Assembly: GCA_902596745.1 (NCBI GenBank)
Contig: CACJUZ010000009.1
Span: 1 to 33,117 of the forward strand
Length of the DNA stretch: 33,117 bases
Reading direction: 5' to 3'
Origin: an uncultured Pelagibacteraceae bacterium
GTDB taxonomy: Bacteria; Pseudomonadota; Alphaproteobacteria; Pelagibacterales; Pelagibacteraceae
This document shows, one piece after another, positions 5,349 through 8,605 of this stretch; position 1 is the first letter of the stretch; each line of letters starts with the position of its first letter. The notes beneath the pieces are model-generated. The model was not told where the DNA came from and did not search any database. It saw only the letters and a program-made list of their open reading frames with translations. A program made the translations under genes and the position numbers.

Positions 5349-5726
5349 ATGGAATACGAAAAAAATCCCCTAACACCACATTTACAAATTTATAAATGGC
5401 AAATTTCATCTCTATTATCTATCGCACATAGAATAACAGGTGTAATCAACGCTATTGCTATAAGTTTTATATGTATATGGTTTTTACTTGTAATTTATAA
5501 AGAACAATTTTTATTTGAAAATATTCTGAATAGTTTTTTTGGAAAATTTATATCTATCTCATTGTGCTGGACATTTAGTTTTCATGTCCTAAATGAAATT
5601 AGACACTTAGTTTGGGATGCTGGTTATGGTTTTGACCAAAAAATCTCAAAATTAACAGGATATGTAACTTTAGTTTTGTCTTTTTTTCTCGCAATTATTA
5701 TCTATTTAATAGGTGTCAATCTTTGA
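5349..5726 (+). CDS. sdhC: succinate dehydrogenase cytochrome b556 subunit SdhC
   Basis: SdhC is one of two membrane anchors of complex II, which hold heme b and the ubiquinone site in the inner membrane. The 125-residue protein has the family start NPLTPHLQIYKW, three hydrophobic helices (about 20-50, 63-88 and 102-124) and the signature SIAHRITGVI. Ser24 and Arg28 correspond to E. coli quinone-site residues Ser27 and Arg31. His79 in FHVLNEIRHLVWD corresponds to E. coli heme ligand His84, and His86 is the second His of that motif. The Gly usual before IRH is Glu here. The stop codon lies 2 bases before the likely sdhD ATG. Confidence 0.95.
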   Translation: MEYEKNPLTPHLQIYKWQISSLLSIAHRITGVINAIAISFICIWFLLVIYKEQFLFENILNSFFGKFISISLCWTFSFHVLNEIRHLVWDAGYGFDQKISKLTGYVTLVLSFFLAIIIYLIGVNL

Positions 5727-5728
5727 AA

Positions 5729-6052
5729 ATGAATAAATCAACAAAAAAATGGTTATTTATTAAGTTTAGCTCACTATTTTTAATACCCTTTATGACATGG
5801 TTTATTATAAACTTAGTTTCAATTTTTAATAATGATTATGACAGTCTAGTGACGTTTTTAAGCGAGCAGCCTTCAAAAATTCTATTTTCAATTTTTGTAT
5901 TTCTGTCGTTTTTTTTCTATTCTTTAACGATTAGTGAGATTTTTGAGGATTATATGAGTAATGAAAAAATCAAAAATGTCGCAAATAAGTTTGTATATAT
6001 TTTTGCTATACTATTGTCTTTTGGAACTATAATAACCATTTATAATCTATAA
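5729..6052 (+). CDS. sdhD: succinate dehydrogenase membrane anchor SdhD lacking the heme-ligand histidine
   Basis: SdhD is the second membrane anchor of complex II. It is identified by its place between sdhC and sdhA, its size (107 residues from the ATG at 5729), three hydrophobic helices and the conserved FEDY segment (Asp74-Tyr75, matching the quinone-site Asp-Tyr of E. coli SdhD). A TTG at 5723 in the same frame overlaps the sdhC stop and would add two residues; I prefer the ATG. By eye, the position of E. coli heme ligand His71, twelve residues before the Tyr, is Phe63 here. The whole protein has no His and no Cys. The sequence is divergent, but the context makes the call firm. Confidence 0.88.
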
Positions 6053-6053
6053 T

Positions 6054-7829
6054 ATGAAAAGTTATAAAATAATTGATCACGAATATGATGTCGTAGTTCT
6101 TGGAGCCGGTGGATCCGGCTTGAGAGCTGCTGTAGGTTTATCAGAGGCAGGTTTAAAAACTGCTTGTATTTCAAAAGTATTTCCAACTAGAAGCCACACA
6201 TCAGCAGCGCAAGGTGGAATTTCAGCAGCACTTGGTAATATGGGAGAAGATGATTGGAGATGGCACATGTATGATACAGTTAAAGGTTCCGATTGGCTAG
6301 GGGATCAAGACGCAATCGAATACCTATGCAAAGAAGCTCCCTTAGCTGTTAAGGAGCTGGATAAGTATGGCGTGCCATTTAGCAGAACCGAAGATGGAAA
6401 AATATATCAAAGACCATTTGGAGGAATGACTAAAAATTATGGAAACGGTACGGTCCAAAGAACTTGTGCAGCAGCAGATAGGACCGGACATGCAATTCTT
6501 CATACATTATACGGTCAAGCATTAAAACATAATACAGAATTTTTTATTGAATATTTTGCACTAGACTTAATTATGAAAAAAGGTGAATGCAAAGGATTAA
6601 TTGCTTGGAACTTAAACGATGGTACTATTCATAGATTCAAGTCACATATAACTATAATTGCAACTGGAGGCTATGGAAAAATTTACTATTCGGCTACTTC
6701 TGCTCATACGTGCACAGGTGATGGAAATGGTATGGTTTTAAGAGCTGGACTTCCACTACAAGACATGGAGTTTGTTCAGTTTCATCCAACAGGAATTTAC
6801 GGTGTTGGATGTCTTATATCGGAGGGAGTTAGAGGTGAAGGAGGTTTCCTTTTAAACTCTAAAGGTGAGAGATTTATGGAAAGATACGCTCCTAGTGCGA
6901 AAGATCTTGCCTCAAGAGATGTAGTAAGTAGATCTATAGCTATTGAGATAAACGAAGGAAGAGGAGTTGGAAAAGAAAAAGATCATGTTCATCTTCATTT
7001 AGATCATTTAGATCCAAAAGTAATTGACGAAAGATTACCAGGAATAGCTGAGTCTGCAAAAACATTTTCTGGAGTTGATGTAACAAAAGAACCAATACCT
7101 GTGGTTCCTACTGTACATTATAATATGGGTGGCATTCCTACAAATTATAAAGCAGAAGTTTTAACTTTAAACGGATCTGAGAAAACAGTACCCGGTCTAA
7201 TGGCCATAGGCGAAGCAGCATGTGTTTCGGTCCATGGAGCTAACAGATTAGGATCAAATTCATTAATAGATTTAGTTGTATTTGGAAAAGCAGCTGCTAA
7301 AAGAGCCGCTGAACTAGTAAAGCCTAATACACCACACGAAGATACTCCTCAAAGTGAAACAGATAAATGTTTGGATAGATTTGATAAAATTAGAAATTCA
7401 AAGGGTGAAACAAGCACCTCTCAACTTAGGTTATCTATGCAAAAAACAATGCAAAGTAAATGCGCTGTATTTAGAACAGAAAAGACTTTGAAGGAGGGTG
7501 TAAATGAAATTAGGAAACCATTTGAAGGCTTAGATGATATTTCTGTAAAAGACAAATCTTTATTGTTTAACACAGATCTTGTAGAGTCCTTAGAATTTGA
7601 TAATCTTATAAGACAAGCAATGACAACAATGGATTCGGCATATCATAGAAAAGAGAGTAGAGGAGCACACGCACGAGAAGATTTCTCAAAAAGAGATGAC
7701 AAAAAATTTATGAAACACACTTTAGCTTGGCAGGACGGTAAAGAAGTAAAAGTTAAATACAGAGATGTGCATGCAAGAACTCTTACGAATGATGTTCAGT
7801 ACTTCCCACCAAAAGAGAGAGTATACTAA
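6054..7829 (+). CDS. sdhA: succinate dehydrogenase flavoprotein subunit
   Basis: SdhA carries covalently bound FAD and oxidises succinate to fumarate on the cytoplasmic face of the inner membrane, passing electrons to SdhB. The 591-residue length is normal. The FAD-binding start [17 protein letters not shown] is followed by [11 protein letters not shown], where His48 is the expected flavin attachment site. Active-site stretches [35 protein letters not shown] and the C-terminal flavin loop [17 protein letters not shown] are all present. It starts one base after the sdhD stop codon and overlaps the sdhB start by one base. Key residues appear intact. Confidence 0.98.
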
Positions 7830-8605
7830 TGGCTGAGTTTTCTCTTCCAGATAACTCAAAAATAGTAAAGGGAAAATATTACAAAGACAAAACCGGCTCA
7901 CAAAATATCAAAAAGGTTCATGTCTACAGATGGAACCCTGACGATGAAAAAAATCCAAGAATTGATACATTTGAGGTTGACATGGATAATTGTGGTCCAA
8001 AAGTTTTAGATATTCTTTTTAAGATCAAAAACGAGATAGACTCATCTTTAACTTTTAGAAGATCATGTGCCCATGGAGTTTGTGGTTCGTGTGCTATGAA
8101 TGTGGATGGCGTTAATACTTTATCATGCATTAAATCTCATAAAGATATAAAAGGTGAATTAAATATTTATCCTTTACCGCATTTAAAAGTAATCAAAGAT
8201 TTGATCGGAGACTTAAGTAATTTATATAGACAGTACGAGTCAATACAACCATGGTTAAAAACTTCAAAAACTAATACTGAACAACAAGAGATAATTCAAT
8301 CTCAAAAAGATAGATCTAAACTCGATGGATACTATGAGTGTATATTATGCGCTTGTTGCTCAACTTCTTGCCCAAGCTACTGGTGGAACGGAGATAAATA
8401 TTTAGGACCGGCTGTTCTACTTCAAGCTTATAGATGGATAAGTGATAGCAGAGATGAAGAAAAAAAAGAAAGATTGAAAAAAGTTGCTGATGAATTGAAA
8501 CTTTATAGATGCCACACCATAATGAACTGTACAAATTCATGTCCCAAAGGGCTTAATCCAGCTAAGGCTATTGGATCTATAAAAAAAATGCTTGCAACAA
8601 GCTAA
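7829..8605 (+). CDS. sdhB: succinate dehydrogenase iron-sulfur subunit
   Basis: SdhB relays electrons from FAD to ubiquinone through three iron-sulfur clusters. The 258-residue protein shows the [2Fe-2S] ligands Cys80, Cys85, Cys88 and Cys100 ([13 protein letters not shown]). By comparison with E. coli, Cys171/174/177 plus Cys238 hold the [4Fe-4S] cluster and Cys181/228/234 the [3Fe-4S] cluster ([11 protein letters not shown] and [14 protein letters not shown]). All cluster ligands are present, so electron transfer to the quinone site should be normal even though SdhD is unusual. The start overlaps the sdhA stop by one base. mmsA begins 21 bases downstream, across two short alternative hairpins. 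Confidence 0.98.

Follow-up and report, generated by a model that had tools for sequence, protein, structure and literature searches.

Replaced heme-pocket residues point to a likely heme-free type C complex II in a clade of SAR11 bacteria

SAR11 are very common sea bacteria. We analysed a stretch of 33,117 nucleotides (contig CACJUZ010000009.1, called here the window) from an uncultured Pelagibacteraceae bacterium, whose assembly (G000, GCA_902596745.1) has 1.02 Mb in 29 contigs and is 87% complete. The ORFs of both membrane anchors of succinate dehydrogenase (complex II), sdhC and sdhD, are intact and are followed by sdhA and sdhB on the same strand:

5349..5726, + strand: sdhC, cytochrome b556-type anchor subunit, 125 aa (ORF; TIGR02970, 2e-31; AlphaFold model)
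5729..6052, + strand: sdhD, hydrophobic anchor subunit, 107 aa, ATG start, no His or Cys (ORF; TIGR02968; AlphaFold model)
6054..7829, + strand: sdhA, flavoprotein subunit (ORF; TIGR01816, 1.2e-286)
7829..8605, + strand: sdhB, iron-sulfur subunit with SCPSYWW and RCHTI motifs (ORF, family match)
window, + strand: asd, on the same strand as the sdh genes (ORF list)

From comparison with E. coli SdhB, we take SCPSYWW and RCHTI to be the quinone-side motifs of the window SdhB. SdhC and SdhD scored above the family cut-offs of NCBIfam TIGR02970 and TIGR02968, respectively, and SdhD fell slightly below the cut-off of Pfam Sdh_cyt (23.5 vs 25.8 bits). Among the SdhC and SdhD matches in the profile search (E up to 1), there was no FrdC or FrdD model. 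With SdhA, SdhB and two three-helix anchors of the SdhC and SdhD families, the locus has the composition of a type C SdhCDAB enzyme.

The AlphaFold model of SdhD, for which a 51-row alignment was the input, had a mean pLDDT of 90.4, and its residues 3..107 superposed on residues 11..115 of E. coli SdhD (2wdq_D) with no gap (105 aligned, rmsd 2.0, and Z 12.9, a value near 13 being common for helical bundles). When the same model was searched with Foldseek, the top rows were SDH anchors with probability 1.00 and a weak best E of 0.027, which is likewise common for such bundles. In the structural comparison that gave Z 12.9, the match to the fumarate reductase anchor FrdD (1kf6_D) had a lower Z of 9.1. 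Because the superposition is ungapped, residue n of the window SdhD corresponds to E. coli n+8, and Phe63 to His71. The sequence-profile alignment of SdhD to 1nek_D was ungapped too (E 1e-5), so that Phe63, and not another SdhD side chain, stands at the His71 position, as the original prediction had judged by eye. For SdhC (mean pLDDT 84.8; Z 12.4, rmsd 2.7 and 108 aligned residues on 7jz2_C), the equivalent residues were assigned by sequence, with Arg28 at Arg31 and His79, Glu83 and His86 at His84, Gly88 and His91. The residues of the heme and quinone sites, all on the + strand, are as follows:

5418..5432, + strand: SdhC Ser24...His27-Arg28 = E. coli Ser27, His30 and Arg31; quinone site and proximal propionate side; kept
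5583..5585, + strand: SdhC His79, codon CAT, equivalent to the first heme ligand of E. coli (SdhC His84); retained in the window, replaced by Gln in many relatives
5595..5597, + strand: SdhC Glu83, codon GAA = E. coli Gly88
5604..5606, + strand: SdhC His86 = E. coli His91, distal propionate network (role from an excerpt of PMC3290573); kept
5762..5764, + strand: SdhD Lys12, codon AAG, at the position of E. coli Arg20, which binds the distal propionate, and of Lys73 in Sdh4 of the heme-free yeast enzyme
5915..5917, + strand: SdhD Phe63, codon TTC = E. coli His71, the lost second heme ligand
5927..5929, + strand: SdhD Thr67, codon ACG, at the position of E. coli Gly75; Sdh4 of the heme-free yeast enzyme has Glu112 there
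5948..5953, + strand: SdhD Asp74-Tyr75 = E. coli Asp82-Tyr83, quinone site; kept

Thus, the axial His on the SdhC side is present and that on the SdhD side is absent. SdhC has His at positions 11, 27, 79 and 86, and SdhD has Met at positions 1, 22 and 76. The original prediction had emphasized that SdhD contains neither His nor Cys, which is true of the window protein; the SdhD of L016 and other relatives contains His at other positions, so the complete absence of His is a peculiarity of the window genome, and position 71 is the decisive one. The same prediction had called SdhC His79 and the quinone residues retained, and the residues read as it had stated: the counterparts of SdhC Ser27 and Arg31 and of SdhD Asp82 and Tyr83 (E. 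coli numbering) are all in place. The Pro/Trp and His207 of the SdhB quinone side are retained as well.

To follow these positions through the order, SdhC and SdhD were read from 149 of the 348 genomes (out of 397) that were positive in a Pfam search. The genomes were chosen by listed match strength and then for coverage of all 11 genera with a match, and the proteins were aligned with E. coli. Hereafter, positions 20, 71 and 75 of SdhD and 30, 84, 88 and 91 of SdhC follow E. coli numbering, and each state gives SdhC 84 and SdhC 88, a slash, then SdhD 71 and SdhD 75:

g1 (the window's genus), 43 genomes: HE/FT 36, QE/FT 7
g6, 6 genomes: QE/FT 4, HE/FT 2
g3 (Pelagibacter-like), 56 genomes: QE/FS 41, QE/FT 5, QE/YS 5, QE/FN 1, HE/FT 1, QE/HT 1, SdhD cut (QE) 1, SdhC cut (FS) 1
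g2, g4 and g5, 13 genomes: all HG/HG
g7, 1 genome: HG/HS
g11 (second family, f2), 5 genomes: HG/HG 4, the fifth with SdhD cut
g10 (f2), 21 genomes: YC/HG
g12 (f2), 3 genomes: YS/HG
g13 (f2), 1 genome: ND/HG

The loss of the second heme ligand, first noticed in the window, extends through g1, g3 and g6, where SdhD 71 was not His in 103 of the 104 genomes with a letter. In the same genera, all 104 genomes with an SdhC letter had Glu at SdhC 88, and at SdhC 84 Gln was found in 65 of them and His in the other 39 (owing to the two cut loci, the 104 genomes counted for SdhC are not quite those counted for SdhD). A sequencing or assembly error was ruled out as the source of the change, which is clade-wide over many genomes.

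Named relatives were represented by 80 of 112 confirmed loci, taken from one scan of genome contigs. They overlap with the first set, since 23 pairs share both proteins over the compared parts. For example, g1 includes HIMB058, as SdhC and SdhD of 'Candidatus Pelagibacter ubique HIMB058' (L328; HE/FT) equal those of G034 (L049) over the last 90 residues compared. HIMB114 and two Fonsibacter-titled loci were HG/HG, 'Candidatus Pelagibacter sp.' RIS_SAG_65 was QE/FS and was placed with g3 in the tree, and 'P. ubique' SCGC AAA795-E22 was QE/HT; among the order genomes, G011 was Gln/Phe. Over both sets, there were 155 loci with Glu88 (135 distinct protein pairs), and none of them kept both His residues; SdhC 84 and SdhD 71 were His/Phe in 67, Gln/Phe in 61, Gln/Tyr in 15, Gln/His in 9, His/Asn in 2 and Gln/cut in 1. 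Both His were present in 42 of 42 loci with Gly88 in the same family (HIMB114, Fonsibacter and others). SdhD 20 followed the same division: of the 154 Glu88 loci with a letter at this position, 152 have Lys and 2 have Arg, and all 42 Gly88 loci have Arg.

Several side observations were made within the order. In g3, exceptions were seen at nearly fixed SdhC sites, with His30 replaced by Thr in two loci (L112 and L128) and His91 by Gln in one (L105). In the second family, the reverse loss was observed: SdhC His84 is Tyr in g10 (L041, L094, L126 and others) and g12 (L138, L142, L143), and Asn together with Asp at 88 in g13 (L040), and SdhD His71 is kept in all three genera. Loss of the ligand on the SdhC side may be another, independent way of arriving at a complex II without heme. 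In the sister group of the Glu88 clade (L037, L271, L279, L281-L283 and similar loci), both His and Gly88 are found with Ser at SdhD 75, which was perhaps a first step.

Outside the order, 142 genomes of the class were surveyed, about one per family (three families twice). The SdhD model matched in 115, of which 2 lay inside the order and the other 113 were all read. When 20 of the 27 genomes with no match to this model were searched with Pfam PF01127, two were positive, namely a real Sdh beside SdhA (G458) and a permease-like protein (G488). SdhD 71 was His in 113 of the 114 alphaproteobacterial genomes read outside the order, the exception being Val in G458. Because the position is so nearly invariant there, its loss across the SAR11 clade exceeds chance. 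SdhC 84 was His in 109 of the 113 genomes with a letter, and Tyr in G481, G531, G506 and G458. An acid at SdhC 88 or SdhD 75 was found in four of the four ligand-loss genomes vs 2 of the 109 genomes with both His (Fisher p 2e-6, a value to be read with the last four genomes aligned by eye, G458 very divergent and the pattern already seen before the test); on the first 109 genomes alone, the counts were 2/2 vs 2/107 (p 0.001). The four, from different families, combine SdhC Tyr84 with Glu at SdhD 75 (loci L255, L254, L346 and L347, in the genome order given above), and G506 also has Glu at SdhC 88; the Val at SdhD 71 of G458 was read by eye. Two further genomes, G442 (L227) and G428 (L250), have both His and Asp at SdhC 88; in L227, SdhD 75 is also Asp, SdhD 20 is Lys and SdhC 91 is Gln. 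These two possibly represent an early stage, or heme may be tolerated beside the acid.

The changes were placed on a quick tree of SdhA, SdhC and SdhD, for which the columns of the traits themselves were masked (137 rows, LG+G4, SH-aLRT only). The 86 rows with Glu88 formed one clade with no other row inside (SH-aLRT 99); its sister was a HG/HS group of 10 rows including AG-414-E02, and HIMB114, Fonsibacter and g5 came next. Parsimony gave six changes at SdhC 84 and six at SdhD 71 within the clade vs two and one outside, a modest excess per branch length (p 0.07 and 0.03, respectively), and with a return to His forbidden the SdhC His was lost eight times in the clade. Under a simple model, Phe at SdhD 71 was placed at the root of the clade with 0.99, and His at SdhC 84 with 0.80 when the sister group was included and 0.47 when it was left out; nucleotide-step parsimony at SdhD 71 required 9 steps for a Phe or Tyr root and 10 for His. 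These results do not support a scenario in which Glu88 appeared before either ligand had been lost, the margin in the parsimony count being one step. A reversal may account for His71 in the AAA795-E22 group. Taken over both subunits, heme-near sites showed no significant excess of change (p 0.28), and those of SdhD alone were more changed (p 0.02), but only at p 0.069 vs the nearest sister group. In three contrasts among groups with both His, the average change at heme-near vs remaining sites was 0.20 vs 0.49, 0.29 vs 0.55 and 0.42 vs 0.62; given this lower change where both His are kept, constraint on the heme surroundings may be relaxed in the Glu88 clade.

Roles of these positions are described for two systems. 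In E. coli, according to an excerpt of PMC3290573, SdhD Arg20, SdhC His91 and SdhB His207 bind the distal propionate and SdhC Arg31 and SdhD Gln78 the proximal one, Arg20 and Arg31 being equivalent via a pseudo-twofold axis. In the introduction of the same paper, a heme-free E. coli variant kept significant activity and supported growth on succinate, with a lower rate and less stability. In the heme-free yeast enzyme, according to an excerpt of PMC13066397, Tyr108, Glu112 and Lys73 of Sdh4 substitute for heme contacts: Tyr108 occupies the ligand site, Glu112 stands where a glycine was and takes over from a propionate as the partner of Sdh3 Arg97, and Lys73 is paired to Sdh3 Asp167. Lys73 follows a Trp by four residues and precedes a Pro by eight; the spacing is identical for Lys12 of the window, which gives the two the same position. 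Glu83 lies at the mirror of Glu112 and may contact Lys12.

Taken together, we consider it likely that the sdhCDAB genes of the window encode a normal succinate:quinone oxidoreductase of type C (the E. coli/mitochondrial type) whose anchor no longer binds heme b. Electrons would pass as usual from FAD through three Fe-S clusters to quinone, because the heme is off that path. The pocket would have been remodelled on or near the stem of the clade holding the window's genus and g3, by the replacements SdhD His71 to Phe, SdhC Gly88 to Glu and SdhD Arg20 to Lys. The Glu-Lys pair and filled-in side chains probably take over the cross-linking of SdhC and SdhD by the heme and its propionate, with a putative Glu83-Lys12 bridge (perhaps an Asp90-Lys12 bridge too) in place of the distal propionate; judging from the spacing, a single helical turn would separate position 88 from His84, and likewise from His91. 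SdhC His79 would then be a leftover with no partner in the window genome, having become Gln several times in related lineages.

The original prediction had left three states of the heme side by side: absent, held by one ligand, or held by another residue. Absence appears the favoured one because the propionate side has changed as well (SdhC Gly88 to Glu and SdhD Arg20 to Lys), neither His nor Cys is available in SdhD, and many close relatives carry Gln in place of the SdhC His. Some observations stand against it. Nine of the 155 Glu88 loci have SdhD His71, all with Gln at SdhC 84; g10 and g12 are without the SdhC His yet have gained no acid; and some genomes in which both His are present (g11) share the Lys at SdhD 20. 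In addition, an acid at SdhC 88 is by itself no proof of heme loss, since L227 and L250 carry Asp88 with both His. Loss of heme synthesis was rejected as a cause: of 27 order genomes picked for the test, 26 have both ferrochelatase and cytochrome b, so heme synthesis persists in the order, and neither gene was found in the window's own assembly, a gap most likely due to its incompleteness.

A five-coordinate or weakly bound heme on SdhC His79 alone in the window's genus, lost only where the SdhC His is also gone, would be compatible with the retention of this His in the window and in 39 of 104 clade genomes, and E. coli mutants with a single axial ligand reportedly keep heme. Crystal structures of E. 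coli His71Met and His84Met exist, as seen in PDB entry titles. We regard this arrangement as unlikely, because Glu88 and Lys20 are common to loci with and without the SdhC His, and SdhC 84 has changed about six times within the clade. Another ligand, such as SdhC His27 (E. coli His30, which packs about 3.5 A from the heme according to an excerpt of PMC3290573) or His86 (E. coli His91), is highly improbable: both positions are kept in 151 of 155 Glu88 loci, but they are equally conserved where the His pair is intact, one or the other is replaced in the few g3 loci noted above, and SdhD, with Met at three positions, has neither His nor Cys. It is scarcely credible that the anchor is no longer a quinone reductase or has another role, a reading for which no support was found, as Ser24, Arg28, Asp74, Tyr75 and the SdhB motifs are kept and sdhA and sdhB lie directly downstream.

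Preferring a heme-free type C enzyme in the window, we also lean, with less assurance, toward a broader proposal. The complex II of g1 (HIMB058-type), g6 and g3 would be naturally heme-free bacterial type C, in which the heme was displaced once by the SdhC Glu88-SdhD Lys20 pair, the mirror of yeast across the pseudo-twofold axis. Gain of an acid four residues after a ligand site would be a recurrent route, taken again in the four other alphaproteobacterial genomes and in g13. Among the titles and abstract starts of the open-licence PMC papers listed in our searches, we found no earlier account of SAR11 complex II that deals with its heme or with heme loss, and the literature search gave no spectrum or structure of any SAR11 complex II. 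The purpose of the complex II heme is an old question, the heme being off the electron path and dispensable in E. coli. A very abundant free-living bacterial group apparently without it, together with heme-keeping relatives (HIMB114 and Fonsibacter) and intermediate stages of ligand loss, can serve as a natural experiment, in which it becomes testable which residues replace the heme, what goes with it, and whether the saving of an iron cofactor is of any consequence in iron-poor seawater. Iron saving as the driver of the loss is speculation. The match with yeast further points to a rule at the sequence level, with which genomes encoding a heme-free complex II could be recognized.

Compared with known systems, the window enzyme shares features with several. 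The complexes of Tetrahymena thermophila and Perkinsus marinus are also described as being without heme (in an excerpt of PMC13066397), but they are divergent protist complexes within supercomplexes, likened here by description. E. coli FrdABCD, a type D fumarate reductase, likewise has a two-subunit anchor without heme, whereas the window anchors match SdhC/SdhD models and not the Frd ones. With E. coli SdhCDAB (type C; PDB 1nek, 2wdq), the window shares gene order, fold, quinone-site residues and an ungapped SdhD; unlike its bis-His heme b, the SAR11 clade is without SdhD His71 and often without SdhC His84. The heme-free enzyme of Saccharomyces cerevisiae (PDB 9qdl, 9qdm; excerpt of PMC13066397) has the same type C build, and in both at least one heme-ligand position is replaced, the Sdh4/SdhD ligand being lost and the partner His kept. 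Both have a Lys at the SdhD Arg20 position, a new Glu four residues after a ligand site and a preserved quinone site. The lost ligand is Tyr in yeast and Phe in SAR11, and the yeast Glu is in Sdh4 (SdhD 75), facing Sdh3 Arg97 (read as E. coli SdhC Arg31), whereas the SAR11 Glu is in SdhC (88), the pseudo-twofold mirror of the Glu112 position. In yeast the absence of heme was measured, and in SAR11 we infer it from the replaced pocket residues.
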